From: a virus
Strand: one strand, 5' to 3'
IMG/VR virus record: IMGVR_UViG_3300049847_000173
Coordinates: 1 to 23,931 of that record
DNA length: 23,931 nt
In this document: positions 1 to 18,697 of the stretch, piece after piece
Numbering within the stretch: position 1 is the stretch's first letter
Layout: each line of letters starts with the position of its first letter
Notes under the pieces: generated by a model
What the model was told of the DNA's origin: nothing
Seen by the model: only the letters and a program-made list of their open reading frames with translations
Databases searched by the model: none
Made by a program: the position numbers and the translations under genes

Positions 1-2
1 AT

Positions 3-60: not shown

Positions 61-67
61 CTAAATT

Positions 68-114: not shown

Positions 115-153
115 AACCGCCATTTCTTTGTAAATCAAGCACATGCATAGAAT

Positions 154-229: not shown

Positions 230-250
230 TTTGCGGCGACTCGCAAGCCA

Positions 251-1179: not shown

Positions 1180-1185
1180 GGTGCG

Positions 1186-1452: not shown

Positions 1453-3332
1453 GGCGACCGCTTCCAAACATCGATGTAAATAGTCCCTGCAGCAATATCT
1501 TTTGCTCCGCCTGACGCATTGACGATGGTTGTGTCAACGCTGTTTTCTGCAACGACTTGGCCGGACAGCGAGCAACCATCAGTATTTGCGCTATGGGTAA
1601 CGGTGACGATGTCTCCAACAGCCGCACCAGCAACCGACCAATTCGCAACGCTGGATGAGTTGTTTGCGATGTTTGGCGGGTCGTATGCTTGGGAAAATCT
1701 GACTCGACCGTCGATAGGGAATCCAGCACCGCCAGCGAATTCGTAATCGGTGGCGGTTCCTGATCCAACATGATTGCCGTCGAACTTGATATTCTTCGGA
1801 ACAGGTAGGGATGCGTTTGTTTGGAACGCCGAGCGCCCAGTTGAGGACGCTGGGATTCTGTTGTCAGCAGCTATCCAGCCGCTTGTGCCTGTCGTCCCGT
1901 CTGCGATGAACCGGACACCAGCGTATGTACCCGATGCGGCTTGCCCAACGTCCTTGATGAAGTTCCCACTCACCTCCCCACCGACTGCGGCCACCAGGTC
2001 AATGCCAATGTAATCCGGGGTGAAAATCTTGTTGCCAGTAATTGTCGTGTCCTGAAGGTCGGTAAATCCGGTTCCCTCTAATTTTATGCCGCAGCCTTTC
2101 GAGTTCCTGATGGTGTTTCCGACAATCTGATTCCCACTTGCGTGACCGAACACGCTGATTCCGCCAGAGATGACGCCAGGAATAGCAGCACATGACCCAA
2201 TGATCGTATTGAACCCTGCCACGTTGTCGGTGCATGCTGGTTGGGCTCCCTGGCTATACATGGTGATAGCCTCGTAATCAGCCCCCTCTAGGTGATTGTG
2301 CAAAGCCTGGCACCTGTTTGCACCAGAGCTGAAATACACTCCGTGACGCCCCCTGCCGGGAGATCCGATCCATGTGTTGAATGCGCAAATCAAATCCTTA
2401 ACATTTCCGCCAAGAATTCCGTAGCCGAACCCTGATGCGTTTCCCCAGAGTCGGTCAAAATTACAGTTGAATACCCGCCCGTAGTGGCACCCATCATCGA
2501 ATTTGATGCCGTTCGTGAAACCATGCGCAGCATCCTGGCCAGAAATAAAAACGTTTTCAACCCGAATACCAGTAACCGGTGTTGCGAGCGCTGTAGAAAT
2601 AGCAAACCGGCTGGTAGTTGCTGCGGTAGCTGCACCGTGGAGTTCCATATCCCGGATGGTTACTTTGTCCCCAGTAATGTTGAAAAGGTTTTGAGTTGGG
2701 TCAGTGTGCCGAATTACCGTGGCACCAGGCCCATCGCCGTAAAGGCACTGCCCGCCCAAAGACAGCGTCGCGGCACTGATCTTGTACCCGCCTGCGGGCA
2801 TGTAAATAGCACGGCCTAGCGCGAACGACTTAGCTGCGTTGAATATCGCGGTGTGGTCATCGGCAAACGTCTTTGCTTTGATTGCTGCGCGCTGGGCCTC
2901 AGTGCAAAACCAGAGTATGTTTACTGCGTTATCTTCAACTGCTGCGCCGATCGTTTTAGCCAAGTAGTTGAGTGGCGGCGCAAAAGCCATCATCCCAGGG
3001 CCTTCGGATGCATCCGCCGGGTTAGCAAGTGCGGACTGCAACGCGGCTGACACCCCTGCAACTTCAGGCGTCGCCACAGCATCAACCGTCCAAACCGTCA
3101 CATCAGAAGCCGTCTTGAGCACCACCTTGTAGGCCCCATTCCAGAACACCGTGGCCTCGCCCCTGGCGTCCAGGATGACGGGGTTTGTGTTGGGGGTGGT
3201 GCCCGCCGCGTCAGCGTAGGTGGCGCGTGGCGTGTTCGTGCCCGCATCGTAGGTGTAGAGCATGCCGCCCACCAGGGGCAGGCCTGCGCCATCGGTGAAG
3301 CTCTGTTTGCCTTCCGGCAGAAGGGTTGCCAT
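1449..3332 (-). CDS. Tailspike, beta-helix receptor-binding protein
   Basis: This 627-residue protein is expected at the tail tip, binding and probably cutting surface polysaccharide. Residues 1-86 are a virion-attachment domain of a type seen on many podovirus spikes (LPEGKQSFTDGAGLPLVGGMLY, NPVILDARGEATVFWNGAYKV, split here by a variable loop). From about residue 157 to 550 the chain looks like a pectate-lyase-type right-handed beta-helix: YMPAGGYKI, followed by many short N/G-rich turns such as GNTIRNSKGCGIKLEG and ITGNKIFTPDYIGID. The last 75 residues (NNSSSVANWSV to the end) look like a separate C-terminal domain. The coding sequence after about 2990 looks lower in GC than the attachment-domain part, suggesting module exchange. 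It follows a hairpin at 3352-3374. The Shine-Dalgarno is GGAG, 9 bases from ATG. P22 gp9 is the functional parallel. The exact enzyme activity cannot be read from the sequence. Confidence 0.9.
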   Translation of the reverse strand: MATLLPEGKQSFTDGAGLPLVGGMLYTYDAGTNTPRATYADAAGTTPNTNPVILDARGEATVFWNGAYKVVLKTASDVTVWTVDAVATPEVAGVSAALQSALANPADASEGPGMMAFAPPLNYLAKTIGAAVEDNAVNILWFCTEAQRAAIKAKTFADDHTAIFNAAKSFALGRAIYMPAGGYKISAATLSLGGQCLYGDGPGATVIRHTDPTQNLFNITGDKVTIRDMELHGAATAATTSRFAISTALATPVTGIRVENVFISGQDAAHGFTNGIKFDDGCHYGRVFNCNFDRLWGNASGFGYGILGGNVKDLICAFNTWIGSPGRGRHGVYFSSGANRCQALHNHLEGADYEAITMYSQGAQPACTDNVAGFNTIIGSCAAIPGVISGGISVFGHASGNQIVGNTIRNSKGCGIKLEGTGFTDLQDTTITGNKIFTPDYIGIDLVAAVGGEVSGNFIKDVGQAASGTYAGVRFIADGTTGTSGWIAADNRIPASSTGRSAFQTNASLPVPKNIKFDGNHVGSGTATDYEFAGGAGFPIDGRVRFSQAYDPPNIANNSSSVANWSVAGAAVGDIVTVTHSANTDGCSLSGQVVAENSVDTTIVNASGGAKDIAAGTIYIDVWKRSP

Positions 3333-3351
3333 ACTGCGTGTCTCCGAAACG

Positions 3352-3374
3352 AAAAAGCCCGCTCAAGGCGGGCT
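3352..3374 (-). terminator. Hairpin with T-tract before the tailspike gene
   Basis: On the minus strand AGCCCGC and GCGGGCT (3374-3368 with 3362-3356) pair around loop CTTGA and are followed by TTTTTCG. This is a good intrinsic terminator shape. It lies between the last ejection gene and the tailspike, 23 bases before the tailspike ATG. Either the tailspike is read by antitermination or readthrough, or it has a promoter I could not identify. Confidence 0.75.
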
Positions 3375-3431
3375 GTGGGTGGTCAAATGGAACTTGTTGC
3401 GTCTGTCTTGGGTGTGATGCTGTACCGCTGG

Positions 3432-5621
3432 CTACTTGATAGCTCCGACAGCAGCAGCTCCAGCGGCTACACCGCCAGCACTTACAAGATCGGAGAGGCG
3501 GCGTACCGTGCCGGCATCAAGCTGGGCAGGCTGCACCGGAGGCTGCGCAGCAAGGGCCCGTTGCACGCCCGTTTGGGTTTGAACCGCCGTCCTCGCTGAG
3601 CTGATCAGCCCCATCGCTGCCGGCATGCCGGGAATCCTGGCAACGATGTTGGTGATCGCTCCCCAGTTCCCTGACGTGTTGACTGGCGCCTTGTTGGGTG
3701 GCTGGTTGATGTAGGCGCCAACACGCGCAAGCCTGTGCAGTTGCTCGATTTGCTGGGGGCTGAAAAACGCGGCCAGCTTGTCGTCACCCAAGTCGTTGAG
3801 CACTTTGGCGTAACGCTCTACCGACATGGTATTGTCCCCGGCGACGTTCTCACCGAAGGCTGCACGAGCCAACTTTGCGCCGATCTGGCTCTGGGCTTGG
3901 TGATATGCCTGGGGTGACTGTTGGCGCAGGATGCCAGCCAGGCGGGCGGCCTGGTCTGTGTCAGCGTTGATGATGAATTGATCTACGAAGGTGTCTGGGC
4001 TTGCCTGGCCCCGCGCCACCTGGGCTAGAGCATCCACGCTGTCATGCAGGGCAAAGCGATCTGCTGCCAGACGGCGAGCAGGCGCAAAGACATCATCGGC
4101 GCCAGGCTCGGTGACTGATCGCTTCACCGCTGCGCGCAACTGGGCCAGGGCTGCATTGGTTGCATCGTCGGTGCGACTGCCGCTGGCGTTGATGATCTTG
4201 AGCAGCTTGTCCGCCTCTTCGACGGTGAACAGCTTCCGTGGTGCTGGCATGCCGGTCTGATCTGGCAAAACGCCGTACCGCCGAAGCTGATTGAGCACGC
4301 CGCTTGGCACCTTGTCCCCAAAGTTGTCGAGCACCTCGGCCGCATCCTGGGCAAGGCCCTGCATCGGAAGCTCCGCGTCTTTGCCCGCGCTTTCTCTGGC
4401 TGCCCGATATGCAGATCTCACGCCCGCGCTGAGCTGCTCGTCATAGGCTCGCAGTGGCGCCATGAGGGTTCCACCGGCGCGGTAATCCTGTTGGGCGCCT
4501 TGCCCAAAGCGATTAACGCGTTCTTGAATCTGCTGCCCCTGGCGCTGCATGCGTTGCAGCAGGGGGTCGCCGGTACCGGGCACCTGGCGCAGGTTCATCT
4601 CGTTGGCGTACTGCCTGCCATCGCGAGTGATCTGCCCCAGTGTGGGATCGATGCCCTCGGCCTGGAAGTCTCGAAGCCTGGCCAAGGTGGCAGGATCGCG
4701 GCGGCCCGCTGAAGCCCTGAGCGCCTCCGCAACCTGGCCTCGCATCTGCTGCTGCATGGCCGGGGCCATGTCTTCCCACCGCTGATTTGTGTCGTTGGCC
4801 ACATTGCGAGCGATTTGCTCAACCTCTTGCGCGCTGGGTGGCCTGGTCGAGGCTCGGCGAGCTGATGCGTTGGCAAGCCACTGGCCAACTCGGTCACCGA
4901 TGGCGCCGAGAACCGGTGCTGCCACAGCGCCAGAGATGGCGCCAAGGCCAGCCTGGCCCGCCTTCTGTGCGCCAAAGCTGGTGCCGTCATCGCCCGTGTT
5001 GGTGACCGGCTGCAGCAGCCCAGCCAACGTACCGCCAGCGGCCCCCGTCGCGGCTCGGCGGACCACAGTGGACCCAGCCCCTGGCAGCACCCTCGCAACG
5101 ACGGCATTGGCCGGGCTCAGCAGGTTCCCAACACCGCGCATCAGGTCAACCCCCGGATCCTCCTTCTGGCCTGTGACGATTGATGTCAGCGTGCGCGGCG
5201 CAGTGGCCTGGCGCGCAGCTTGGTACTCGGCCTCTGCGGCCTGTATGCCTGCGTCCATCTGGGCGGGCGTTGCGCCTCGGATGCCCAGCACTTCACCAGC
5301 AAAGTCGCCCGGCAGGCCCAGGCGGTTGAACACCTGGCGATTCAGGAAGCCGCCAGCCGCATCTGCCGCGCTGTTGATCACTCCAGCGCCTGGCATGCGT
5401 GAAGCCAGTTGCGCAGCGCCGTCGATGGGGTCGAAGCCCCCGCGAGCCAGCCTCATGGGAGCGCTTGAAATCAGCTTTTGCCGGTCGGTTGGACCGGTGG
5501 CCGGGGCGTTGGCCCCAAGCCTTTGCTGGAGTACTTGAAATGCCTGCTCTGACGTGGAGCCGTCCGGGCCCTCCACGGTGAAGCTCTTGCCCTCAGGAGA
5601 CGTGAACGTGAATTTGGGCAT
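3432..5621 (-). CDS. DNA ejection protein, large (P22 gp16 position)
   Basis: This 729-residue protein is the third and largest of three adjacent ejection-type genes, as P22 gp16 is after gp7 and gp20. The N-terminus (PKFTFTSPEGKSFTVEGPDGSTSEQAFQVL) is a short beta domain often found on phage internal proteins. The middle is Ala/Gly-rich with hydrophobic stretches (AATGAAGGTLAGLLQPV, GLGAISGAVAAPVLGAIGDRV), consistent with a protein that enters the cell envelope with the DNA. The C-terminal half is mainly predicted helix (Arg/Ala/Gln-rich). The start has GGAG 9 bases upstream and lies only 3 bases past the preceding stop. Function is inferred from order, size and composition. No enzymatic motif was seen. 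Confidence 0.72.
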   Translation of the reverse strand: MPKFTFTSPEGKSFTVEGPDGSTSEQAFQVLQQRLGANAPATGPTDRQKLISSAPMRLARGGFDPIDGAAQLASRMPGAGVINSAADAAGGFLNRQVFNRLGLPGDFAGEVLGIRGATPAQMDAGIQAAEAEYQAARQATAPRTLTSIVTGQKEDPGVDLMRGVGNLLSPANAVVARVLPGAGSTVVRRAATGAAGGTLAGLLQPVTNTGDDGTSFGAQKAGQAGLGAISGAVAAPVLGAIGDRVGQWLANASARRASTRPPSAQEVEQIARNVANDTNQRWEDMAPAMQQQMRGQVAEALRASAGRRDPATLARLRDFQAEGIDPTLGQITRDGRQYANEMNLRQVPGTGDPLLQRMQRQGQQIQERVNRFGQGAQQDYRAGGTLMAPLRAYDEQLSAGVRSAYRAARESAGKDAELPMQGLAQDAAEVLDNFGDKVPSGVLNQLRRYGVLPDQTGMPAPRKLFTVEEADKLLKIINASGSRTDDATNAALAQLRAAVKRSVTEPGADDVFAPARRLAADRFALHDSVDALAQVARGQASPDTFVDQFIINADTDQAARLAGILRQQSPQAYHQAQSQIGAKLARAAFGENVAGDNTMSVERYAKVLNDLGDDKLAAFFSPQQIEQLHRLARVGAYINQPPNKAPVNTSGNWGAITNIVARIPGMPAAMGLISSARTAVQTQTGVQRALAAQPPVQPAQLDAGTVRRLSDLVSAGGVAAGAAAVGAIK

Positions 5622-5624
5622 GGT

Positions 5625-7004
5625 TCAGTGCTCCGTCACGCTCCAGCCGCCAGGTAGGGCCGCTGGCTTCTGTGTTGACTGTTGCTCTTGCGTGTTCAGC
5701 TGTGCGGCCTTGTTGGCTGGCACCTCGGCCATCAAGCCGCGAATTGCCAGCTTTCTGTTCATCGCTTTCTGCTGCTTGACTGCGCCTGAGTCACCGGGCT
5801 GCGGGAAATACTGCTTTGTTGCGCTATCGAACTCGCTCGGGGCAATTGCTGCCCCAGACTCTCTGCGAAGCACTGCGTTGATGAAGTCCCTCTGAGCTTG
5901 CTCAACTTGCTGCTGCTGGGTGGATTGCGTGCCGTTCGCCATCGTTCCTAAGCCGTCACCAATCCATGGCACAGAAGTGACTGCGCGCTTGAACATGCCG
6001 GGCTGATCGACGCCCTGAGATGACAAGGCGTCAAGAATTTTGTTCGATGCCTGCATCCGCGATCCAAACAGCAGCGCCTTGGCCTGGCTGTCATTGAGGC
6101 CGGAATCCTTGCCCTTGATCTGGGCGCCGCTCATGGTTGCTGCTGGTCTGACCAGGCCCGTGCCTTTGTCCACCAGCGCATAGCCGTCAGGCGTCTCCAC
6201 CACTTGCGTGCGGGCGGCCTGGCGCGCAATGTCATTGCCCTCCCTTGCTCTGGCGTCGGCCATGTTTTGCCCGCGTCGTGATGTCGCCGCACTCTGGTCT
6301 TCCCCCGGCGTGGTGGTCATCTGAATGGGTGCCGGGCCACCGGGGGTCGTGATTTCATTCATGTCTGGGAACAATGTCACCTTTCCGTTATTGACCTGCT
6401 TCCGCTGGGGCATCACGGCCTCCAGGCGCTTGGATGCCTCCATGTTCTCAAGGGCCCTCTGAATCAGGAATGGCCTCAGTTTGGTGGGGTCTCCTGGGAT
6501 CGACTGCAGGGCAGCCAGAGCTTGCTGGTCATCAATGGCGCCCGTGTTCTTGAGTTGCACCAAGCCTTGCACCACATCGTCATGGGTCACATCAGGACGG
6601 GAGAGCATCGAGCCCAGCACATCGCGCACGGCGCCCAGTTTCTTCTTCAGCACACCATAGTCGCGCTCTCCGGTCTGGCTACGGGTGTTGGCCAGGTCCA
6701 CCTCGGACTTCTGCTGGTCCTGCTGCTGCTTGAGCAGGGCGCCGTAACCCTTGGTGTTGCCGCTCTTGGCCAGTGATGCCAGCGCCATCCCGGTGTTGAG
6801 CTTGCCGTCAGGCCCCACGCTGTTTTTCAGCGCATCGCCATAGTCCCGGTCGTAGCGCTGTTGCTCCTGGGCCTGCTGCATCTGCATGTCTTGCATCTGC
6901 TGCTGCCCGAGCAATGACTTGAGGCTCAAGGCCTTGCCGTAGCTGTCCATTGGGTCAGCCGCTGGCCGAACGCCCAGGATGATGGATGGATCGAGTTGTG
7001 CCAT
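5625..7004 (-). CDS. DNA ejection / internal virion protein (P22 gp20 position)
   Basis: This 459-residue protein is mainly alpha-helical. Glutamine-rich segments near residues 30-60 and 100-110 (QQQMQDMQMQQAQEQQ, LLKQQQDQQK) suggest coiled coils. P22 gp20 is 471 residues and has the same place between gp7 and gp16. The annotated start at 7004 (MAQLDPSIILG) has a strong AAGGAGG site 8 bases upstream. A longer frame to 7097 would run into the upstream gene without such a site. The stop of the upstream gene (TAA) is part of this ribosome binding site, so the two genes are likely co-translated. Role by analogy: carried inside the capsid and ejected before DNA. Confidence 0.72.
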   Translation of the reverse strand: MAQLDPSIILGVRPAADPMDSYGKALSLKSLLGQQQMQDMQMQQAQEQQRYDRDYGDALKNSVGPDGKLNTGMALASLAKSGNTKGYGALLKQQQDQQKSEVDLANTRSQTGERDYGVLKKKLGAVRDVLGSMLSRPDVTHDDVVQGLVQLKNTGAIDDQQALAALQSIPGDPTKLRPFLIQRALENMEASKRLEAVMPQRKQVNNGKVTLFPDMNEITTPGGPAPIQMTTTPGEDQSAATSRRGQNMADARAREGNDIARQAARTQVVETPDGYALVDKGTGLVRPAATMSGAQIKGKDSGLNDSQAKALLFGSRMQASNKILDALSSQGVDQPGMFKRAVTSVPWIGDGLGTMANGTQSTQQQQVEQAQRDFINAVLRRESGAAIAPSEFDSATKQYFPQPGDSGAVKQQKAMNRKLAIRGLMAEVPANKAAQLNTQEQQSTQKPAALPGGWSVTEH

Positions 7005-7017
7005 GTGGGTGTCCTCC

Positions 7018-7773
7018 TTACGCCATGGCACTGAGCGTGCCGAAGCTGTCGCTGGCGCCGGCGCCGAATGCTGGGTATGAGGCGGACGCAGCTCCACCGC
7101 CGCCTGATCCGAGCATCTTGCTTAGGCTGTACATACTCTGCAGATTGCTCACACCGCTGTTGACGGCGTTGGCCTGGCCGACGATGCCCGCTGCCCGCGC
7201 ATTTCCCGCCGCGAGCTGGTTGCCTGCGATGGAATCCGCGGTGGAGGTGCCCATGCTGGCCACATCACGGGTGGCGGTCTGCCCGGTACCGGCCAGCGAT
7301 GACAGCCGGTTGAATCGACGGTCCATGTCTGCATTGAAGCGGTTGTAGGCGTCGGAGTACTCGCCCGAGGCGTAATCCTGGCTGTAGCGCTCCAGCGCCT
7401 TGGCGGCCCCACCAGACAGCGCGCCACCCCGGGCAGCCGCGCTGCGCTCCATCGCCTGCTGACCCTGGCCCATGCGGAAGTCATAGCCCGGGTCTTTGGT
7501 GAAGTCGCTCAGCGTGAAGTTGCGGTTGAAGTCCGCCCCATCCGCCGTGCCCTTGGTGAGCTGTCCAAGGGCCACCTTGCCAGCATCACGCCAGGGCGTC
7601 AGATCCTCGCGGTTCTGGTTGAACATGGCCAATTGGGTGGCGTTGGCATCTTGCGATGCCTGGCGTTGGGCGTCTGCTGCATCGCCTGCTGCATTGGCGC
7701 CCATGACGGTACCGGCAATGGCGGTACCGGCCCCAATCATCCCCCACGTTGCAGCGCTGATTCCGAGTGCCAT
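7018..7773 (-). CDS. DNA transfer / ejection protein (P22 gp7 position)
   Basis: This 251-residue protein is first of the three ejection-type genes. It begins with a hydrophobic Gly/Ala segment (residues 2-25, ISAATWGMIGAGTAIAGTVMG), then an Ala/Gln/Asp-rich helix (DAADAQRQASQDANATQLAMF), a middle part with RGGALSGGAAKALERY, and a Gly/Ala/Ser-rich tail. This resembles small ejection proteins (P22 gp7, T7 gp14) that insert into the envelope to start DNA passage. ATG at 7773 has AAGGAG 7 bases upstream. It lies 4 bases past the cupin-gene stop. The extension to 7806 was rejected because it would start inside that gene. Confidence 0.72.
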   Translation of the reverse strand: MALGISAATWGMIGAGTAIAGTVMGANAAGDAADAQRQASQDANATQLAMFNQNREDLTPWRDAGKVALGQLTKGTADGADFNRNFTLSDFTKDPGYDFRMGQGQQAMERSAAARGGALSGGAAKALERYSQDYASGEYSDAYNRFNADMDRRFNRLSSLAGTGQTATRDVASMGTSTADSIAGNQLAAGNARAAGIVGQANAVNSGVSNLQSMYSLSKMLGSGGGGAASASYPAFGAGASDSFGTLSAMA

Positions 7774-7777
7774 GGTG

Positions 7778-8245
7778 TTACTCCTTGAGTGCGGCCGGGG
7801 CCACAAATTCGATGCCTGAGCGGCGCGTCTGAAGGCTGGCCGATTCGCTGGTCATTTCATCCTCGATGGCCTCGATGTCTGAAAGCTGCGTCGGCCAGAT
7901 CGTTGTCCAGTAGGTGTCGGCATGGGCAACCCCTGCCCGCTTGAAGCCCGCTTTGGCTGGGATCACGTGAAAGCCTGTCAGCCGCCTGGGGCCCTCATCC
8001 GTCGTGACCGTTATGTCACCCGACAAGATGCACAGGTTTGCAATGTTGGTCAGGGCGCCCGTGAGCACGGTACCAGCCGGGATGAAAATGGTTCGCGAGC
8101 ACATCCCACCATGCACCACATGGCTGGCGGCCAGGTCAACCTGAGGCAGCGTGAGCAGGTGGGCTTCCATGGCGCGCACTGACTCGGGCGAAGGCATGGA
8201 GCCCATGAGCGCGTGGGCAGACTTCTCTGTCAGCTCAGCACACAT
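7778..8245 (-). CDS. Cupin-fold protein in the virion gene block
   Basis: This 155-residue protein has residues about 50-117 that read as a small jelly-roll: SRTIFIPAGTVLTGALT, then NLCILSGDITVTTDEGPRRLTG, then FHVIPAKAGFKRAGVAHADTYWTTIW. The IPAGT/GDI/PAKAG pattern is typical of cupins. The His pattern is incomplete for a canonical metal site, with H42, H45, H93 and H108 present. The start at 8245 was chosen because its ATG shares a base with the preceding stop (TGATG). The longer frame to 8350 has an Arg/Gly-rich shadow-like N-terminus. P22 has the small assembly gene 14 near this position, but I see no sequence argument for homology. It is likely a virion or assembly protein; enzymatic activity is unproven. 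Confidence 0.75.
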   Translation of the reverse strand: MCAELTEKSAHALMGSMPSPESVRAMEAHLLTLPQVDLAASHVVHGGMCSRTIFIPAGTVLTGALTNIANLCILSGDITVTTDEGPRRLTGFHVIPAKAGFKRAGVAHADTYWTTIWPTQLSDIEAIEDEMTSESASLQTRRSGIEFVAPAALKE

Positions 8246-8577
8246 CAGCTCACCTCCCGACCGCTTGCGCGGATGGTGACGCCCGTGGCGCCCGCCAGGG
8301 TGGAGATGAAGCCACCGGGCGCCAGCACCTGACCGACCACCTCGGGGCACGTGTAGGTTTCACCGGCGGCCAGGCTCTTGGTCTTGAGCACCAGGTTCTG
8401 CGTACCCGCCGTGTCGCTGCTGGTCACCAAGTTGACCGAGATGGTCACAGCCGCAGCCGTGGTGTTCGTAGCAGTGAACTTGTCGATGATGGTCCGCACG
8501 CCGTTGGCGGTGTACTGGGTGGTTTGGGCTGTCTCCGCGTTCTTCGCGGGGATCAGCACGGCGACATTGACGGCCAT
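8245..8577 (-). CDS. Small beta-rich structural protein, unknown
   Basis: This 110-residue Thr/Ala/Val-rich protein has alternating beta-strand patterns (IIDKFTATNTTAAAVTISVNLV, split by short turns, and TYTCPEVVGQVLAPGGFIST). It looks like an Ig-like or decoration-type fold used on phage surfaces. AAGGAG lies 7 bases before the ATG. It is coupled to the cupin gene downstream by TGATG. No specific family was recognised. The virion location is inferred from the surrounding genes. Confidence 0.75.
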   Translation of the reverse strand: MAVNVAVLIPAKNAETAQTTQYTANGVRTIIDKFTATNTTAAAVTISVNLVTSSDTAGTQNLVLKTKSLAAGETYTCPEVVGQVLAPGGFISTLAGATGVTIRASGREVS

Positions 8578-8589
8578 GGTTTGGCTCCT

Positions 8590-8982
8590 TCAGGGGGTTG
8601 TGCCTTGCAGCAGGCTTTGGATTTGTTGGCGCAGGGTGTCGATCTCGGCGCGCAGGGATGCGATGTCAGGCAGCAGGTCGGGATCGGTGGTGATCAGGTA
8701 GATGGGCGCCGGAGCGATCAGGGCCTGCTCGTCGACCTGGTCGGCCTGCACGGCTGGGGCCTGCTGCCAGGCGTCATCCATGGAGCGAAGGCGGGAATCG
8801 ACCTCGCTGGTGCCCGCGTCCTCGAAGAGGCTCAAAGACAGGTCTGTGGTGGAGTTGCCCAGAGATCCACCAACGCGCAAGAACAGGCCTTGCAGGAAGA
8901 GAAACCACTCTCGGGTGATCATCCCCGTGCGCGGATCCACGAACGCGACCCTGGGCGGCACGAACTTGAGTGCATCGCTCAT
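8590..8982 (-). CDS. Small structural-block protein with C-terminal coiled coil
   Basis: This 130-residue protein has an N-terminal motif (PPRVAFVDPRTGMITREWFLFL) of a type common among short proteins of phage tail and tail-fibre regions. The C-terminal 30 residues (SLRAEIDTLRQQIQSLLQ) form an amphipathic coiled coil. The ATG overlaps the stop of the gp10-like gene as ATGA. It occupies the position of the P22 tail-needle gene 26, but is much shorter and has no long trimeric repeat region, so identity with gp26 is not supported. Confidence 0.72.
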   Translation of the reverse strand: MSDALKFVPPRVAFVDPRTGMITREWFLFLQGLFLRVGGSLGNSTTDLSLSLFEDAGTSEVDSRLRSMDDAWQQAPAVQADQVDEQALIAPAPIYLITTDPDLLPDIASLRAEIDTLRQQIQSLLQGTTP

Positions 8983-10412: not shown

Positions 10413-10417
10413 GGTGA

Positions 10418-11125: not shown

Positions 11126-11135
11126 GGCGTCAGCC

Positions 11136-11777
11136 TCAGTTCTGAATCACAAGGTAGTCGAACGGTGTGATACCAGTCGCCGCAGCGTTGCCCGTTACGG
11201 TGAACGAGCCCGCGCCAGGAGTGACGCGCACAGAAGTGAGCGTGGCGTCAGCACCACCGAGAGACACGAGAATCGTACTGTTTGCCGCAACCAACGAGTT
11301 GGTAACCGCGACGGAAGCGCCAGCAGCAGCAAATGCAGCGCGGCCACGAGGCTGGTTTTGGGTCACATTTCCTGGCGTACCAGATCCATCAATGAGAGCG
11401 CAATTGAGCGAGCCACCGATAGCAAATCGCAACGTTGTAAACGAGCCTGTGTTGGGGGTCGCTACGCCGATCGTTGTGTTGTTCACTGCGCCACCAGTGA
11501 TAGAGACCGCTCCGGAGTTGTACAACCCGTCTGTTAAGAACGGATTGGCGCTCACCACATATTCAGCCTCACCATACACTGCCTCCACAGTGACAGTAGC
11601 ACCAGCAGGATACGGTCCATAAACGCTCTGACCGTCAGTGACCGATTGAGTCGGACCGCCCGGGAGACCCTGAGGGATGGAGATGGAGGCCGATGCACCG
11701 CGCAGGGCGCCCACGCGGATCGACTGACCCGCAGGAATCACCACCTGTGCGTCGCGGCCTTGTTGCAAAAACGGCAT
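11136..11777 (-). CDS. Beta-rich decoration / head-fibre-like protein
   Basis: This 213-residue protein has an N-terminal part (residues 1-70, IPAGQSIRVGALRG, SVYGPYPAGATVTVEAVYG) that looks like a small beta-sandwich. A Gly/Thr-rich middle contains GVATPNTGSFTTL. The C-terminal 75 residues (GRAAFAAAGASVAVTNS to DYLVIQN) closely resemble the C-terminal part of the 131-residue product of 12088-12483, so the two are paralogues over this domain. This domain type is common on phage capsid decoration proteins. It is preceded by a strong terminator-like hairpin 23 bases upstream, and has AAGGA 8 bases before the ATG. Confidence 0.78.
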   Translation of the reverse strand: MPFLQQGRDAQVVIPAGQSIRVGALRGASASISIPQGLPGGPTQSVTDGQSVYGPYPAGATVTVEAVYGEAEYVVSANPFLTDGLYNSGAVSITGGAVNNTTIGVATPNTGSFTTLRFAIGGSLNCALIDGSGTPGNVTQNQPRGRAAFAAAGASVAVTNSLVAANSTILVSLGGADATLTSVRVTPGAGSFTVTGNAAATGITPFDYLVIQN

Positions 11778-11792
11778 GGTGTTCGTCCTTCA

Positions 11793-11818
11793 AAAAAGAA
11801 GGGGGCCGAAGCCCCCTG
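11793..11818 (-). terminator. Hairpin with UUCG loop and T-tract
   Basis: On the minus strand the hairpin is AGGGGGC-TTCG-GCCCCCT followed by TCTTTTTTG. This is the strongest intrinsic terminator in the window. It follows the 73-residue gene and ends 23 bases before the start of the 213-residue gene. Confidence 0.88.
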
Positions 11819-11839
11819 TGTGATCAAGCCGGTGCGGCG

Positions 11840-12061
11840 TCAAGCTGCTGCGGTGGCCTTCTTGCCCTTGGTCTGCGCTTCAGCCAGAGCTGCGCGCAGG
11901 GCCTCGATCTCCGCATCGCGGGGATCAACTTCGGGCTCTGCCGATGCGTCGCTGGGCTGATCTCCCCAGCCATCGCCCAGCGCGGCCTCTTCTTCGGTGT
12001 TGTGCACCAGCTTGGCGGTTGCGCCCTGGTACTTCCACTTGGGAAACTCGATGTGTTCCAT
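11840..12061 (-). CDS. Small acidic protein, unknown
   Basis: This 73-residue protein has three parts. The N-terminus reads EHIEFPKWKYQGATAKLVHN, followed by an acidic Asp/Pro-rich linker (DASAEPEVDPRDAE) and an Ala-rich helix with a basic end (IEALRAALAEAQTKGKKATA). Small proteins with the FPKWKY start are frequent beside capsid genes in phages. No function was recognised. AAGGAG lies 7-8 bases before the ATG, and the gene ends just before a strong terminator. Confidence 0.7.
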   Translation of the reverse strand: MEHIEFPKWKYQGATAKLVHNTEEEAALGDGWGDQPSDASAEPEVDPRDAEIEALRAALAEAQTKGKKATAAA

Positions 12062-12087
12062 GGTTCAGACTCCTTCTGTGTGCCTGA

Positions 12088-12483
12088 TCAGGCGTTGGTT
12101 GTGAGGCCGCCGTAGGGGCCGAGCTGGGCCCAGTCGATGGCCACAGCGGCGGTGGCGGCAGCGTTCAGCGTGAACGTCACCGAGCCAGCGGCAGGCGTGA
12201 TGCGGGTGATGTACAGCGCAGTGGCGTCAGCCGCAGCGTTGGAAAGTACGGCAAAGAACTTCGACTCAGTGGTGAAGCTCGGATTGCTGACCACCACGGA
12301 GGTGCCAGCAGCAGCGATGCCGACGCGGCCCATGGGTTGAGTGGTGGACACGGCGCCCGGAGTGACGGGGCCCGCAGAGGTGGTGGCGTAGCCTGACGCA
12401 ACCAACGCAGCTTCGACGCTGGTAGCCAGTTGCACGATGGTGCCCGCAGCGTAGCCGCCATAGGATTTACCTAAGAGGATCAT
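12088..12483 (-). CDS. Small beta-domain head protein, likely decoration
   Basis: This 131-residue protein sits directly after the coat gene. After ILLGKSYGGYAAGTIVQL come a beta-rich Gly/Ala/Thr domain with GRVGIAAAGTSVVVSNP and a second half with ITPAAGSVTFTLNAAATAA. The latter two align with the C-terminal domain of the 213-residue protein. The start was placed at 12483, where AAGGA lies 7-9 bases upstream. The frame extending to 12540 would pass through the hairpin after the coat gene. It is probably a capsid-surface or head-stabilising protein, by location and fold pattern. Confidence 0.75.
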   Translation of the reverse strand: MILLGKSYGGYAAGTIVQLATSVEAALVASGYATTSAGPVTPGAVSTTQPMGRVGIAAAGTSVVVSNPSFTTESKFFAVLSNAAADATALYITRITPAAGSVTFTLNAAATAAVAIDWAQLGPYGGLTTNA

Positions 12484-12516
12484 GATGGTTCCTTGAAAAA
12501 GGTGATGGGGTTGCAG

Positions 12517-12542
12517 GGATGGAAGGCCCCGAAGGGCCATCC
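12517..12542 (-). terminator. Hairpin after the coat gene, UUCG loop
   Basis: On the minus strand GGCCC-TTCG-GGGCC forms the top. A 4-bp outer stem (12517-12520 with 12539-12542) is separated by a 4-base bulge. The T-run TTTTT comes only 16 or so bases later. It is weaker as a terminator than its neighbours and may be an attenuator or an mRNA-stabilising hairpin. It starts one base past the coat stop codon. Confidence 0.55.
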
Positions 12543-12543
12543 A

Positions 12544-13758
12544 TCAGGTCGCGTACAGGCAAGCCAGTTCGGGGTAAGTGGCGGCCCAACCGAAAAGCAC
12601 GTCCAGACGCATGATCGAGTTGTCGTTCACGCCGTCGTAGAACTCCGTGACTTTGATGGTGAAGCCCTTGTAGGTCTCCTGAGCCACGTCGATCACACCC
12701 TTGCCGCCAGGGGGCGCCCACATCGGCACCATGGCCAGCGTGAAGGCATCCTTGTGATACGCCACGTTGGCCGAGTAGCTGCCCGAGGCGGTGCCGAAGA
12801 TGGTGATCACCGCGCTGTTGGCTGGCGAGCCGGTCACGTTCTGGAAGGCGCCAGAGGTCACCATGGCGGGGCTGATAGGCAACGAAGTGGCTGATGCAGC
12901 CACGTCAGCAGTCACCACGAACTGGGCAAGCGTACCGGTCGATTGGCGCGACTGGGGGTTGACCGCAAAGACGCCCGCAAAGGTCACCTTGGTGCCCTTG
13001 GTGATCGTGCCGTTCAGTGCATTGACCGTGATCGTGGCGCCGGTCTGGTTGGTACCGTTGACCGTGTTGGTGTTCACCACGGCGGTGCCGTTGGTGTGCA
13101 AGTCAACGTTCTGGTCCATGGCGTAGGCCAGGCCCAGGCTGTCAACCATGGTGCCGCTGCTGAATTGCTCGGTAAGCGTCTTCTGACCGTTGAAGAGGCC
13201 AGCGAAGCCCTGCACGGTCGAGGCGTTCAGTGCCGGGTTCATGATGAAGGCGCGGCGGTTGTCCTTGCGGGGGGCGCCCATTTCGTCCAGGCGCTGATTG
13301 ACGCCAGTGACGGCGGCCAGGGCCAGGGCTTGGGTGGTGGGCAGCGTGCCGGGCGTGCCGATGCAGTTGAAGACCGACTGACGGGCCAACTGCAGGCCCT
13401 GACGGTCGATTTCGTTGGCCACCGGCTCCATGGCGGCGCGCACCTTGTCTTCCAGCTTGTTGAACGACAGAGTGCGCTCCAGGCTGGTGAAGTTCAGGTC
13501 ACAGCCGCCCTGAGACAGCGTCAAGGGCAGCGATGTTTCCACCGTGGCCTGGGGCACGGCCACGCGGCCCTGGCGGTAGGTGTAGCGCGGGGGCTTCTTG
13601 ATGTTGATGGTCTGGCCGGGCATGTAGCCACGAGCCACATTGCCGTTGAACTCGTCTTCAAAGTCGCGGTTGACGTTGGAGGCGAAGCTCAGCATGTTGG
13701 CCAGGATGGGCAATGCCTCCTTGGCCACGATGGAACAGGTAACTGCGGTATTGGTCAT
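12544..13758 (-). CDS. Major coat protein, P22 gp5-like
   Basis: This 404-residue protein builds the icosahedral shell (P22 gp5 has 430 residues). Recognisable family features are the N-terminal helix region (SIVAKEALPILANMLSFASN, then VNRDFEDEF) and GQTINIKKPPRYTYRQG. PLTLSQGGCDLNFTSLERTL and KLEDKVRAAMEPVANEIDRQ follow. A variable beta-rich insert is seen near residues 230-300 (VVNTNTVNGTNQTGATITVN). The C-terminus is GFTIKVTEFYDGVNDNSIMR followed by LDVLFGWAATYPELA. GGAG lies 7 bases before the ATG. Hairpins flank the gene on both sides, which may set its expression above that of its neighbours. It follows the scaffold gene, as in P22. Confidence 0.92.
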   Translation of the reverse strand: MTNTAVTCSIVAKEALPILANMLSFASNVNRDFEDEFNGNVARGYMPGQTINIKKPPRYTYRQGRVAVPQATVETSLPLTLSQGGCDLNFTSLERTLSFNKLEDKVRAAMEPVANEIDRQGLQLARQSVFNCIGTPGTLPTTQALALAAVTGVNQRLDEMGAPRKDNRRAFIMNPALNASTVQGFAGLFNGQKTLTEQFSSGTMVDSLGLAYAMDQNVDLHTNGTAVVNTNTVNGTNQTGATITVNALNGTITKGTKVTFAGVFAVNPQSRQSTGTLAQFVVTADVAASATSLPISPAMVTSGAFQNVTGSPANSAVITIFGTASGSYSANVAYHKDAFTLAMVPMWAPPGGKGVIDVAQETYKGFTIKVTEFYDGVNDNSIMRLDVLFGWAATYPELACLYAT

Positions 13759-13780
13759 CTTGGATCTCCAGAAACGACAA

Positions 13781-13798
13781 ACCCCGCCGAAGCGGGGT
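13781..13798 (-). terminator. Hairpin between scaffold and coat genes, UUCG loop
   Basis: On the minus strand the hairpin is ACCCCGC-TTCG-GCGGGGT, a 7-bp stem with an extra-stable loop, followed by TTGTCGTTTC. It ends 22 bases before the coat ATG. The U-tract is interrupted, so it could be a partial terminator or a 5' stabiliser of the coat message. Confidence 0.75.
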
Positions 13799-13826
13799 CA
13801 ATTGGTGGTGTCGTGTGGTTCAGTGG

Positions 13827-14717
13827 TTACCGTGCCCACCGTGCTTTGTTCGGGCCCTTGGAGCGGAACGCCTCGTACTCGGCCATCGTCATCTTTGACG
13901 GGTCTTGCGCGATGGTTCGCCCCTGGCTCGACGTGACAGCGGCGGGCTTGGGTGCTTGGGTGGTCTTCGCAGGAGCGGGCTCGGCGGCAGGCTGCGTGCC
14001 GGGCTCAGCGGGCTTTGACGAAAGGCGCTCTTCCAGGCGGCCAAGCTCACGATCGGATGCGCGTGGGGAGAGGCCATTGAGGCGGTCCAGCAGGTCCGGG
14101 TTCTTGGCCAGGTGGTAAGCCAGGGCGGGCCCGTGCTCGCTGTCCTGGATGGCCTCGGCCACGTGCGCGGCGACGGGTGCATCTGATGCACCCAGCACAG
14201 CGTCGTAGTCGGGCATCGCGGCGCGTGCCCGGGCCTGGCGTTGCTCCCACGTCGTTGCCCGAGTTTGGGCCTGTTGCTGCTGGGCAGCTTTGGCTTCGCG
14301 CTCGGTCAACGCCTTGGAGATCTTTTCCTCAGCCTTCCACTCGGTCAGGGCCTCGATGTAGTCACCGTAGTCGTCGAACTGGTCAGGGGTAGGCTTGGGA
14401 TTGGCAGCGGGTTGATCCGCCGAAGGTTGAGGCGCCTTGCCCTGGGTTGCAACGCCCTTCCAGTAGGCCGCTTCGCGTTCAGCTTCGTGGCGCTTCCGGG
14501 TGAGCTCATCGATGCGAGGCTGGACGCCCTTGAAGCGCCCTTTCTCGTCACGGTCCTGCTGTTCGCCCTCTGGGGCGTCAGTCTGCTGCTGTTGCTCCTG
14601 CGTTTGAGCCGCCTTGTCCTCGCCAGCACCCGTATCGGTCTGCTGGCTCTGGTCGGTGGTGTCGGCCTGGGCCGTCACCGGTGGCTCGGGGGTGAAGGTG
14701 TCTTCTGGCACGCTCAT
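13827..14717 (-). CDS. Scaffolding protein
   Basis: This 296-residue protein (P22 gp8 has 303) has an extremely polar N-terminal third with Gln/Asp/Glu/Thr runs. KGVQPRIDELTRKRHEAERE follows as the start of a long helical region (DYGDYIEALTEWKAEEKISK, EREAKAAQQQQAQ). After a Pro/Ala-rich linker the protein ends in a small basic segment (MTMAEYEAFRSKGPNKARWA). In P22 a basic C-terminal helix-turn-helix binds coat protein. The ATG overlaps the portal stop as ATGA and has GGAGA 7 bases upstream. The role is to direct coat assembly and then leave the procapsid, inferred from composition, size and order. Confidence 0.85.
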   Translation of the reverse strand: MSVPEDTFTPEPPVTAQADTTDQSQQTDTGAGEDKAAQTQEQQQQTDAPEGEQQDRDEKGRFKGVQPRIDELTRKRHEAEREAAYWKGVATQGKAPQPSADQPAANPKPTPDQFDDYGDYIEALTEWKAEEKISKALTEREAKAAQQQQAQTRATTWEQRQARARAAMPDYDAVLGASDAPVAAHVAEAIQDSEHGPALAYHLAKNPDLLDRLNGLSPRASDRELGRLEERLSSKPAEPGTQPAAEPAPAKTTQAPKPAAVTSSQGRTIAQDPSKMTMAEYEAFRSKGPNKARWAR

Positions 14718-16915
14718 TGCGCGATCTCCGGCCCGCTGTACTGATTACCCAGCGGTAGGTCATTGCCCGGGGCGCCTTGTTCTGATGCCGGGCCAGCATC
14801 AGGGCGAGAGTTGGCCTCCCCAGAATCGACAAGGCCCGCATTTGCGGGCCCGGTGTCATCGTCTTGGAGGTCTTGCGCCACATCGGTGGCCAGCACCGTG
14901 GGCGGTTGCATCTTTTGCAGCAGCATGGCGATCACGCCCTTGAGCTCTTCTGTATCGCCACGGCTCTCAGCGTTGATCTTGGCCACCTGGATCTGGGCGT
15001 CAGCAGCAATGCGGGCCTTGTCGACACCGCTCTTGGCCTGGTCGAGCTGGTCCATGAGGTTGTGCATGGCCTGCTCCATCTGCTGGATGTGCTGCTGTAC
15101 CTCGGGCGGCAGTGGTGGCGGGCCGGCTGGCTCGCCGTCGTCGCCCTCTGCCTGGTCGCGCAGCTCTGGCGGCAGGGTCTTCTCGATGCGATCAGCGATC
15201 TCATCAGACATGGGCCAGTCCATGGAGCGCACGACCTTGTCACCCGCGATGTCCATCAGCTTGGGCCAGCTTTGGGCGGTCTGGATCATGCCGTCCACCG
15301 CTTCCTGGCGCATCGTGTCGTAGCTCGGGCCGCTGCTGACGGTGACCGAGTACTCGCCCACGGTCATGTCGTTGAGCACATTCTGAATAGCGCCAGTCTT
15401 GGGGTCTGGCTTTTGCTGCTCGGGAGGCACTGGCGTGTTGATCGGAACCGCCGACACCTTGCCATCCTTGCCCATGATCTGCAGCGTTCGCTGGGCGTCG
15501 TACACCTTGGGCCACATGTCGATGATGCAGCGGCCCACGTGGCGCAGCGTGATGTGCAGGTTGTCGATGTAGTGGAAATTGGCTGTCTCGCCCTGCTGGT
15601 CTCGGCGTTTGATGGCCACGCCGCTCGTCTCGTTGGATCGGGCGCCCAGGCTTGCATCAAAGATACCCGTGGTGGCCTTGATGTCGTCGCTGGCGTGCAT
15701 GGCCATGGCCAGGACGCCAGACGGCAGATCAGCCATGGGCTGACGCTGCGGAGGCGGTGCAAGCATGCCGCCCAGGCTTTTTGGCTTGTACTCCAAGAAG
15801 GGGAAGCTGCTGGTGTTGGCCGAGGCCCACTCGCTCTCGTGCCCCTCGAATTGGCCTTCGGCGCCAATGTACGGTGTCTTGGGGCGCAGCGCCACCTCTT
15901 CGGTGGCCGCCGTCATCCAGAAGTTGTACATGCGCGCCGGGTCTTTGGCGTTGCGGATCAGGCCGGAGCGGAACACCTTGCCGTCGATGTCGGTTTCGTC
16001 ACCATAGACCGGGAACACCGGAATCCACTTGCAGGGGATGTCGGCCCGATCAATGATCTGCGTGGCCGTGAGCTTGAACCATTGCACCGTGGTGCGGAAG
16101 CTGTCGCGCTCCTGCTTGATCGTCACGCCTGGCGGCAGCTCAAGCAGCTTGTCTTTGAAGCCGGATTCGCCATTGCTGAGCAGCACGACCTTGGCGGGCT
16201 CGCGGTGGATGCGGTAGTACTCGGCCAGGCGCACTGTGTCTTCATCGGCCCAGTCGTGCGCGGCGTCGCCCATCCCGCGAATCGCGTTGAGGTCATCGGC
16301 TGTAGCGTCGGGGTGCTCGACCTTGAACTCGGTGCGCGGCATCTTCACGGACAGGATGCACCACTGCTGGTCAGAGCCGTCAGGGTTGACGTGCGACGGG
16401 TCCATGTAGACCGTGAAGGGGTTTCGGATGCGCTTGAACTGGATCTCTTGGTCGAAGCTGTCTTCTCGACAATAGGCTGTGACCAAGCGGAAGTAGCCGA
16501 AGCCGATCTCAGCCGCGCTGTTGACCGCCGTGTCGTAGCACGTGCTGGCGTTGGAGGCGTACTCAACGTGGCGAATGCCGCCCTGGATCACCTCGGCCAC
16601 AGCCTTGTCGCCGTCGCCCACTGGGTGCACGTTGATGCTGGGTACGTTCTGGCGCTGTGCATTGGTGACCTGGTGCACGAAGGTTGGCAGCTTGTTCATG
16701 GTCAGGCACGGGCGCTGATCTCGCGTGCGCTGGGCCTTCACGGCCGGATCCCATTGGTCACCCTTCTTGAAGTTCAGGTCATCGATGGCCTCAGAACGGT
16801 TCTCGCTGTCAGCCGTAACACTGATCTGCATGCGGGCAATGCACTCGGCAATGATGGCCGCGTCGTCAGTGTCCTTGGCCAGCTCGTCGCCAGTGGCCGC
16901 CGTCTTGTCGCTCAT
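14714..16915 (-). CDS. Portal protein, P22 gp1-like
   Basis: This 733-residue protein (P22 portal has 725) forms the dodecameric ring through which DNA enters and leaves. Visible family segments include the N-terminal ADSENRSEAIDDLNFKKGDQW and PCLTMNKLPTFVHQVTNAQR. FKRIRNPFTVYMDPSHVNPD and LGARSNETSGVAIKRRDQQG also fit the family. The C-terminus is helical (PPLPPEVQQHIQQMEQAMHN and KSGVDKARIAADAQIQVAKI), the barrel or coiled-coil part of such portals. The ATG overlaps the stop of the upstream acetyltransferase gene as ATGA, with GAGG about 10 bases upstream. Confidence 0.93.
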   Translation of the reverse strand: MSDKTAATGDELAKDTDDAAIIAECIARMQISVTADSENRSEAIDDLNFKKGDQWDPAVKAQRTRDQRPCLTMNKLPTFVHQVTNAQRQNVPSINVHPVGDGDKAVAEVIQGGIRHVEYASNASTCYDTAVNSAAEIGFGYFRLVTAYCREDSFDQEIQFKRIRNPFTVYMDPSHVNPDGSDQQWCILSVKMPRTEFKVEHPDATADDLNAIRGMGDAAHDWADEDTVRLAEYYRIHREPAKVVLLSNGESGFKDKLLELPPGVTIKQERDSFRTTVQWFKLTATQIIDRADIPCKWIPVFPVYGDETDIDGKVFRSGLIRNAKDPARMYNFWMTAATEEVALRPKTPYIGAEGQFEGHESEWASANTSSFPFLEYKPKSLGGMLAPPPQRQPMADLPSGVLAMAMHASDDIKATTGIFDASLGARSNETSGVAIKRRDQQGETANFHYIDNLHITLRHVGRCIIDMWPKVYDAQRTLQIMGKDGKVSAVPINTPVPPEQQKPDPKTGAIQNVLNDMTVGEYSVTVSSGPSYDTMRQEAVDGMIQTAQSWPKLMDIAGDKVVRSMDWPMSDEIADRIEKTLPPELRDQAEGDDGEPAGPPPLPPEVQQHIQQMEQAMHNLMDQLDQAKSGVDKARIAADAQIQVAKINAESRGDTEELKGVIAMLLQKMQPPTVLATDVAQDLQDDDTGPANAGLVDSGEANSRPDAGPASEQGAPGNDLPLGNQYSGPEIAQ

Positions 16916-17289
16916 GAGTGCAAGGCCTCGATGGTTGGGTTCAGGCGCAGCAGGCGGGGCGTTGAGCCTGGCATGCGGGCCATCAGCACGGGGTCAGGCT
17001 GGATCACCTGAAAGCCAAAGGTGCGGGCGTACCAGTCGATGAGCTGCGTTTTGCCCATGGCGATGTGATCGCCGAATGGCTGTGGCCACAGCACCAGGAC
17101 GATGCCAGCGGCGTCAGCCTCTCGGCACACCGAGTGCATGAGGCTGGTGGCGTAGCCCTTGCCCTGCTCGCTCGCGGGCACCTGCAGGCAGGCCACTTCG
17201 CGGATGCCCTCGCGCATGGTTGCGGGCACGGCGTTGGTGCGGCGAACGCGGCACGTTGCGGCGCCAACCTTGTGATCTTTGGTTTCCAT
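16912..17289 (-). CDS. GNAT-family acetyltransferase between terminase and portal
   Basis: This 125-residue protein has an acetyl-CoA binding motif A at residues 31-56: VACLQVPASEQGKGYATSLM, with the Q-x-x-G-x-G/A loop at 41-47. A C-terminal WYARTFGFQV (86-95) is typical for the last strands of the fold. The expected reaction is acetyl transfer to an amine on a small molecule or protein. The substrate is unknown. The gene is tightly packed: 3 bases after the terminase stop, and overlapping the portal start as ATGA, so it is co-expressed with packaging genes. Possible roles are modification of a virion or host protein late in infection. It could equally be a cargo gene. Confidence 0.8.
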   Translation of the reverse strand: METKDHKVGAATCRVRRTNAVPATMREGIREVACLQVPASEQGKGYATSLMHSVCREADAAGIVLVLWPQPFGDHIAMGKTQLIDWYARTFGFQVIQPDPVLMARMPGSTPRLLRLNPTIEALHS

Positions 17290-17292
17290 CTG

Positions 17293-18609
17293 TCAGCCCA
17301 TCCAGGCAGTTGCGCCGCCCATGGCGATCTGGCGGGCGGTCGGGCGCGGTGTCTTCACCACGTTGTTTGTCAACTGGTCAGCGACCAGGCCCAGGTAGCG
17401 GAACGCGTCAGCGCCGTGGCTGAATTCGTCATGGCGTGGCGTGCCGGGCTCGCCCGTCGTCTTGCTCACGTTGCGGCGGTACCGCTTGAGGCACTCAATC
17501 AGCCGATGCACGCCCGGCGTGTCGTTGAACCAGATCCTGGGGAAGACCAGACGAGCGGTGCGAATGCCCTGCTCTACCTCGATATTGGGTGTCATCTGTG
17601 GCACGCGGCCCAGGGCCTCCAGCACCTCGCTATCGCTCTTGCCCGTCTGGTGACGAGTGGCGTAACCGTCATGGGGCAGCCAGTCATTGCCCCAGGTGTA
17701 GGGCTTGAGTGCGAGCTCGTCGCCCACAGGCTGAGTCGGGTCACGGGGCCTGATGTACTCATCGATGGCGCGGTGACTGTCTTCCAGATAGTCGATCACG
17801 CGCAGTTCGCTGGCGGCACGCTGAACCATGATGATGGACATGGAATCGTTCCAGCCAAGATCCCACACGGCGTGGGTCTTGAGCATGGGGTCGTGCGGCA
17901 CGCGGGTGATGCGGCCTTGCATGAGCACCTGGGCCATCTCTCCGGCATAGATTGCGCCCTGCACTGCTGGGCGGCACTGGCCTTCCCACACGTGCGCGTA
18001 CTCGTCGGCCGCCATGGTGGCCTTGGCGTGCAGGCGCTCCTTCTCCAGCTCTGCCGGGAACCACGGGTTGTCCCGCCAGTTCATGACGATGGACACAGTG
18101 TCGGGGTGCGGGCGCACGGCGGCGCGCTGGTGCGTCTCGTCGCTCTCCAGCTCTGGGTTGTAGCTGGCCCAGATCTCAGAGCCATCGGCCCGGATGGTCG
18201 GGGTGAGGATCTTCCACGACCTGGCCGTGATTGTCTGGGCCTCTTCCAGCCACACGCGGGTGTAGCCTTCCAGCGACTTGATGCTGTCGGCGGTCAGGTC
18301 GGACAGGCCACGGAAGGTGAAGGTGCTGCCGTTGCGCCCTCGGATCTCATTTGCCAGGATCTCGAAGAAGCTGCCCAGGCCCAGGGCCTCGATCTGGTCG
18401 CGCAGCAGCTGGTGCACAGACTGCTTGATGGAGGTCTGCACCTCACGGGCGCACAGGACGCGGTGCGGAGCGCTGGCCGCCTGAACCAGCAGGGCCCGGG
18501 CAATACCCCAGGACTTGCCGGAGCCACGGCCACCACGGACGAACTTGTAGCGGGCCGGTGAGAACAGGAGCGCGAGCGCCTCCGGGATGTTCACCGACGT
18601 TGCGGACAT
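17293..18609 (-). CDS. Terminase large subunit
   Basis: This 438-residue DNA-packaging motor has an N-terminal ATPase with Walker A GGRGSGKS at residues 26-33 and Walker B-like VWLEEAQ at 119-125. The motor-coupling motif region follows (ASYNPELESDE). The C-terminal RNase-H-like nuclease has an early acidic residue in AVWDLGWNDSMSIIM and a late one in EFSHGADAFRYLGLVADQL. This set is typical of the PBSX/Terminase_3 family. AAGG lies 5 bases before ATG 18609. A hairpin ends 17 bases upstream of the start. It opens the morphogenesis block. Confidence 0.95.
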   Translation of the reverse strand: MSATSVNIPEALALLFSPARYKFVRGGRGSGKSWGIARALLVQAASAPHRVLCAREVQTSIKQSVHQLLRDQIEALGLGSFFEILANEIRGRNGSTFTFRGLSDLTADSIKSLEGYTRVWLEEAQTITARSWKILTPTIRADGSEIWASYNPELESDETHQRAAVRPHPDTVSIVMNWRDNPWFPAELEKERLHAKATMAADEYAHVWEGQCRPAVQGAIYAGEMAQVLMQGRITRVPHDPMLKTHAVWDLGWNDSMSIIMVQRAASELRVIDYLEDSHRAIDEYIRPRDPTQPVGDELALKPYTWGNDWLPHDGYATRHQTGKSDSEVLEALGRVPQMTPNIEVEQGIRTARLVFPRIWFNDTPGVHRLIECLKRYRRNVSKTTGEPGTPRHDEFSHGADAFRYLGLVADQLTNNVVKTPRPTARQIAMGGATAWMG

Positions 18610-18626
18610 GCAGGCCTTGAAACGAC

Positions 18627-18659
18627 GAAGCCCGCCGGGCTTGGGGCCGGGCGGGCTTC
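18627..18659 (-). terminator. Hairpin before the terminase gene
   Basis: A perfect 10-bp stem (18627-18636 with 18650-18659) closes a 13-base loop. On the minus strand it is followed by GTCGTTTC rather than a clean U-run. It lies between a Q-position gene with a candidate promoter and the first late gene, which is where lambdoid phages place the terminator that Q overrides. Confidence 0.6.
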
Positions 18660-18697
18660 AGGAGATCTTTTCGGGCACGCTGGCGCCCTCGATAAGG

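Follow-up and report, generated by a model that had tools for sequence, protein, structure and literature searches.

Terminator-like hairpins joined to ribosome binding sites in the late operon of a phage with a P22-like coat

Introduction

Why should a phage place structures that resemble transcription terminators directly before the genes of its coat and tailspike? The question is raised by a virus record from IMG/VR, a genome fragment of 23,931 nt which was analysed over its whole length (the window) and in which the late genes all lie on the minus strand. That such elements stand before the most needed proteins is the main puzzle, since partial termination at these sites would be costly unless read-through was nearly complete. 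Lambda, P22 and HK97 offer known examples of hairpins at capsid genes inside the late operon, and the role of terminators within phage late operons has been described as unknown in a study of phage L (PMC8022706). Could the hairpins be terminators that the late polymerase ignores, do they act on the mRNA instead, or is the same element used for both?

Results

Genes of the window

PHROGs assignments were obtained for the terminase large subunit TerL (17293–18609, minus strand, PHROG 3717/2), the portal, the scaffold, the P22-like major coat protein (12544–13758, minus strand, PHROG 283 major head protein), the head closure protein and the tailspike (1449–3332, minus strand, PHROG 7458 tail spike). 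Among annotated phages Rhodoferax phage P26218 comes closest (coat 78% identity), the nearest contigs are L004, L087 and L009 (coat 90–91%), and the scan of a genome collection yielded a single kin, L163. Only the N-terminus of the tailspike is common to the kin, and the kin scan therefore used this part. Two more genes are preceded by hairpins. The family search gave no match for the 213-aa protein (11136–11777, minus strand), and the 131-aa protein (12088–12483, minus strand) is predicted to be mostly beta (pLDDT 77.5), its predicted structure bearing a weak likeness to the Pam1 tailspike and to K1-lyase C-terminal domains. By eye the C-terminal parts of the two proteins look alike. They are possible decoration or fibre proteins, although for the 131-aa protein such a role is only a guess. 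A GNAT acetyltransferase-like gene which is kept in many kin lies between TerL and the portal (16912–17289, minus strand), and a second one lies upstream (22182–22493, minus strand).

Anatomy of the five hairpins

The preliminary description had placed GC hairpins 17–33 bases before the starts of the TerL, coat, 131-aa, 213-aa and tailspike genes. All five are present on the minus strand, with 16, 21, 36, 22 and 23 nt, respectively, between the end of the stem and the ATG; the discrepancy reflects the number of outer pairs counted. It is also true that the other late gaps have no hairpin, but this is trivial and mostly a matter of gap length: the hairpin-bearing gaps measure 94, 68, 60, 62 and 99 nt in the same order, and the remaining ones, all of 26 nt or less, are too short for a hairpin. 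The rule is thus that every long gap has one, as each of the five late gaps of at least 60 nt, together 383 of the 17,650 late bases, holds a GC hairpin. With a hairpin scorer and thresholds of our own, an equally good hairpin appeared in 0, 1, 4, 3 and 3 of 300 dinucleotide shuffles of the respective gaps.

The hairpin before TerL (18626–18660, minus strand) has the stem GAAGCCCGCC...GGCGGGCTTC and is followed by TCGTTTC (18619–18625) and the ribosome binding site AAGG (18615–18618). The coat hairpin (13780–13799, minus strand; GACCCCGC-UUCG-GCGGGGUU) leads into a U-rich TCGTTTC fused to the Shine-Dalgarno sequence TGGAG (13766–13777). At the 213-aa gene the hairpin AGGGGGC-UUCG-GCCCCCU (11800–11817, minus strand) carries the tail UCUUUUUUGAAGGA, and before the tailspike (3356–3374, minus strand) AGCCCGCCUUGAGCGGGCU is followed by UUUU and then by TCGTTTC fused to GGAG (3342–3352, minus strand). 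The fifth hairpin (12520–12543, minus strand), assigned earlier to the 131-aa gene, starts at the stop codon of the coat gene. A hairpin followed by a ribosome binding site, claimed for all five, therefore holds for TerL, coat, 213 and tailspike, but the remaining hairpin belongs to the end of the coat gene and not to the 131 ribosome binding site. The three UUCG loops were found as described, in the coat, 131 and 213 hairpins, and so was TCGTTTC behind those of TerL, coat and tailspike. The window has exactly three copies of this word, each directly after a hairpin, against 1.4 copies expected anywhere.

Every one of the five has the GC-rich stem-loop of an intrinsic terminator. On the minus strand a simple terminator scan was passed only by the coat, 213 and tailspike hairpins, which have a U-tract at the stem foot; that of TerL is weak, and the post-coat hairpin has none (T score 1.08). 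The idea that all five are one element was consequently rejected in favour of two classes: class A, in which the U-tract runs into the Shine-Dalgarno sequence of the next gene (coat, tailspike and 213, more weakly TerL), and class B, the post-coat hairpin without a U-tract. We detected no promoter-like site in window positions 1–20000 and no Rfam match in the window at the gathering score.

Class A hairpins in relatives

A hairpin occupies the same site before TerL in kin L087 and L084, before the coat gene in L087, L005–L008, L084 and L085, and before the tailspike in L172, L173, L064 and L041. At these homologous sites the position, the stem pairing and the fusion of U-tract and Shine-Dalgarno sequence are kept while stems or loops are altered, and the tails in kin include TGTCGTTTCTGGAG, TTTTGCTTCTGGAG and TTTCATTTCTGGAG. 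In class A the distance from stem to ATG is 15–26 nt, and most members have an unbroken T4–T6 directly at the stem foot. Xanthomonas phage PBR31 also has a hairpin before its coat gene. Many relatives, including the more distant kin P26218, have no coat-leader hairpin, so that it is not essential. Among 114 kin contigs (1.47 Mb), which are related to one another, 44 of 99 U-tailed hairpins on the late strand are followed within 80 nt by a Shine-Dalgarno sequence and a start, the distances peaking at 15–25 nt; for the opposite strand the figure is 9 of 88, without a peak. Loss of the stems and of TCGTTTC in relatives had been named in advance as the outcome that would speak against the set; stems and word alike proved to be conserved, and compensatory changes were seen.

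The hairpin behind the coat gene

The class B hairpin is kept far more widely. A strong hairpin lies within 62 nt past the coat stop codon in 67 of 98 distinct relatives, and 60 of these start within 15 nt. The background is 5% in shuffled sequences and 0–20% after most other late genes, with only the rates behind the 131 (52%) and 213 (43%) genes coming near. UUCG loops are common in these post-coat hairpins (44/67) and U-tracts less so (18/67). The hairpin extends to coats of 33–41% identity. Of the phages with P22-like coats that are isolated or named, 15 of 17 have it, and it is present in Rhodoferax phage P26218. In an alignment of 19 kin, chosen as mostly hairpin-bearing, 92% of the cells pair, and covariation reaches 0.363 compared with 0.222; the observed value was attained by none of 500 shuffles and lies above all slid registers.

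The tail word TCGTTTC

IMG/VR was scanned with the stem-free 16-mer pattern TTTNTCGTTTCTGGAG, which gave at least 120 matches; 80 loci were readable and represented 78 distinct places, the matches listed being biased by file order. Among the matches listed, a hairpin ended within 6 nt of the word in 71 of the 78 places and an ATG followed 3–12 nt on in 76, all 71 hairpin places having both. When the letters of the word were scrambled, a hairpin was present in 1 of 66 places among the matches listed, and we reject the view that TCGTTTC is a chance word. The lower mean GC of the scrambled set (0.40 vs 0.58) explains part of this gap, not all of it; random positions in the contigs of the TTTNTCGTTTCTGGAG set itself had a hairpin in 43 of 800 cases. 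Good stem pairing, seen in 76% of the matches listed, fell to 17% when right arms were swapped between sequences, which indicates that left and right arms change in concert.

The 69 distinct downstream proteins among the matches listed include 23 tail sheath proteins, about 12 major capsid proteins (7 capsid E, 4 protease-capsid fusions and 1 further major capsid protein) and several holins. Most of the sheath set comes from a single Pseudomonas P2-like lineage, so that the counts are not independent. P2 has an activator site and a transcription start ahead of its sheath gene and no hairpin there, which makes the sheath element a feature of a sub-lineage. In the Pseudomonas P2-like prophages (L317, L324, L335 and others) two hairpins and a GTTACGCGTAAC dyad lie about 50 nt before the Shine-Dalgarno sequence of the sheath gene. 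Pseudomonas phage PAE2 carries the exact tail GTCGTTTCTGGAG behind its post-coat hairpin.

Could TCGTTTC be an ordinary tail of host terminators? Counts in bacterial genomes do not support this. Of the genomes taken from the order of the sole host-side kin, 3 of 150 contained the 16-mer, and of those from its phylum 5 of 100, which is near the chance level that we estimated; most of these copies have no hairpin. In a small sample of host contigs (about 180 kb) the design is rare, with 1 of 32 U-tailed hairpins lying 13–27 nt before a start. At homologous phage sites the word varies freely (TTTTGCTTC, TTTCATTTC, TTTTCATTTT), and elements without the seed word have other T-rich tails, for example TTTTTATGCCTGGAG and TTTATTTGGAG. 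On this sequence comparison TCGTTTC is best seen as the commonest variant of the spacer between U-tract and Shine-Dalgarno sequence and not as an obligatory code. One bacterial genome (L438) has the end of a tRNA, a hairpin whose loop measures 10 nt and TTTCTCGTTTCTGGAG before a thrS-like gene starting MPVITLPDGSQRSF; this hairpin is possibly an attenuator.

Discussion

Lambda and P22 are documented cases of late antitermination, and in the phage studied here it is presumed. The likeness to lambda, HK97, P22, Sf6 and phage L is one of place and make-up: the elements lie inside the late operon and around the major capsid gene, and they have a GC stem with a U-tract or UUCG loop at a similarly short distance from the next start. 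The P22 record has a stem_loop at 6102–6119 after the coat gene, marked "similar in location" to those of HK97 and lambda, the Sf6 record annotates "t coat" at the capsid gene, and that of HK97 lists putative terminators after the head gene and on either side of the major tail gene. In lambda, AAAGGCCGCCTGTGCGGCTTTTTTTACG stands in the D/E gap just ahead of capsid gene E and ATGGCCCTTCGGGGCCAT in the E/FI gap, where the hairpin has a GGCCC-UUCG-GGGCC core in common with the post-coat hairpin described here. The annotated HK97 terminator before the major tail gene (L444, 1671–1740) is also fused to a ribosome binding site, CCCGCCAGATGGCGGGTTTTCTTTTTCCAGGAG. Unlike the elements of the lambdoid phages, those of the window are found also before TerL, the tailspike and the 213-aa gene and have the recurring TCGTTTC-TGGAG tail. 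Intercistronic C(UUCG)G hairpins of T4, UUCG-capped intergenic stems as here, were reportedly described by Tuerk et al. in 1988, although T4 belongs to a different phage group. The SAS/ESAS elements of cluster K mycobacteriophages combine a 13-bp sequence at the ribosome binding site, GGGATAGGAGCCC, with 17-bp inverted repeats, stand at non-structural genes and have no U-tract; identity with them was rejected, since the tails TCGTTTC(T)GGAG do not match their consensus (PMC3203893).

How, then, could terminators before the coat and the tailspike be tolerated? The late operon may be punctuated by read-through intrinsic terminators which double as mRNA-end barriers and as insulators of ribosome binding sites, an account to which, judging from the sequence, we give an even chance. 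Unmodified polymerase arriving from early genes or host promoters would stop at the class A hairpins, and late RNA polymerase modified by a factor, Q-like or other, would pass them. The space behind a class A hairpin is too short for a promoter, so the downstream gene would be made by read-through only. In the read-through mRNA the hairpin would passively block 3' exonucleases for the upstream gene and insulate the downstream ribosome binding site, keeping it open. The post-coat hairpin, which has lost its U-tract or never had one, would act mainly as a 3'-end barrier. The anatomy, spacing, conservation and covariation of the hairpins were observed, as was the rarity of the design in the small host sample; their effects on termination, antitermination and mRNA stability we infer. 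The preliminary description had offered intrinsic terminators which a Q-like factor overrides. Four of the five hairpins agree with this and have counterparts in lambda, HK97, P22, Sf6 and phage L, but among the proteins of the window, itself a genome fragment, no Q-like protein or antiterminator was recognised, and the override is therefore putative. A single-subunit phage RNA polymerase was likewise not seen among the window proteins scanned. RNA-processing or stability elements, another of its proposals, suit the post-coat hairpin best, as this is deeply kept, covarying and mostly without a U-tract.

Is it possible that the hairpins are partial terminators tuned to set protein ratios along one transcript, as Tphi after gene 10 of T7? 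In T7 the native terminator that separates gene 10 from gene 11 is tuned to an efficiency of about 62%, so that upstream genes exceed downstream ones (PMC9157156), and LUZ100 has an apparent strong terminator just past its capsid gene (PMC10134795). The position of the post-coat hairpin immediately behind the major capsid gene is the same, with read-through in T7 and LUZ100. Tphi, however, works with a T7-type polymerase and a local promoter, whereas the phage studied here presumably uses host polymerase and its post-coat hairpin has no U-tract, a feature present in only 18 of the 67 relatives that have this hairpin; moreover, attenuators before the coat and tailspike would reduce the very proteins most needed. 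We consider such tuning unlikely. The same low probability is assigned to a role confined to the mRNA, in which the hairpins protect its ends and insulate or boost ribosome binding sites, TCGTTTC serves as an S1-type or ribosome standby stretch, and no termination takes place. The sheath and capsid genes downstream, the constant spacing from stem to ATG and the covariation of a post-coat hairpin free of a U-tract would all agree with it; an unbroken T4–T6 at the foot of class A stems is more than an insulator needs, and the annotators of HK97 and Sf6 call such elements terminators.

Two further explanations seem highly improbable to us. The recurrence of one word behind diverse stems in unrelated phages could mean that a specific factor, a protein or an antitermination complex, recognises the hairpin together with UUUxUCGUUUC, yet the word varies at homologous sites and other T-rich tails replace it; the protein-binding sites proposed earlier found no support. 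Nor do we give much credence to neutral leftovers of mosaic exchange, that is, terminators which came with incoming genes and are ignored by late polymerase. Their patchy occurrence before coat and TerL and the HK97 terminator annotated beside a moron gene would agree with this, but compensatory changes, kept spacing and deep persistence behind the coat gene argue against it.

In the sequences compared, unrelated phages have the hairpin and ribosome binding site design, with its common tail word, ahead of capsid and tail-sheath genes. Returning to read-through terminators, a tentative and rather doubtful extension is that Hairpin-UUUxUCGUUUC-UGGAG-N5-10-AUG is a single composite terminator and ribosome binding element, common to unrelated proteobacterial phages and selected before their virion proteins of highest abundance, which late and unmodified polymerase read in different ways. 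If so, stray transcription would find the element switched off, and it would provide an efficient, insulated ribosome binding site once late polymerase had passed. The element has a defined consensus and a clear expectation of which genes carry it, and a homologous coat-leader series exists in which it is present (L087, L005, L084, L085) or absent (P26218), so that a direct experimental test is possible. It would aid the annotation of phage transcription units and the design of insulated expression cassettes.

Lastly, the low-numbered end of the window holds a sequence like the 3' half of tRNA-Lys(CTT) (61–117, minus strand), followed by a strong hairpin with a T-rich tail (62–29). ARAGORN found no full tRNA at this sequence. 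GCGGAACA/TGTTCCGC repeats lie nearby at 1–21, 148–168 and 218–238, and together the tRNA-like half, the hairpin and the repeats are probably the attachment site of a temperate phage.
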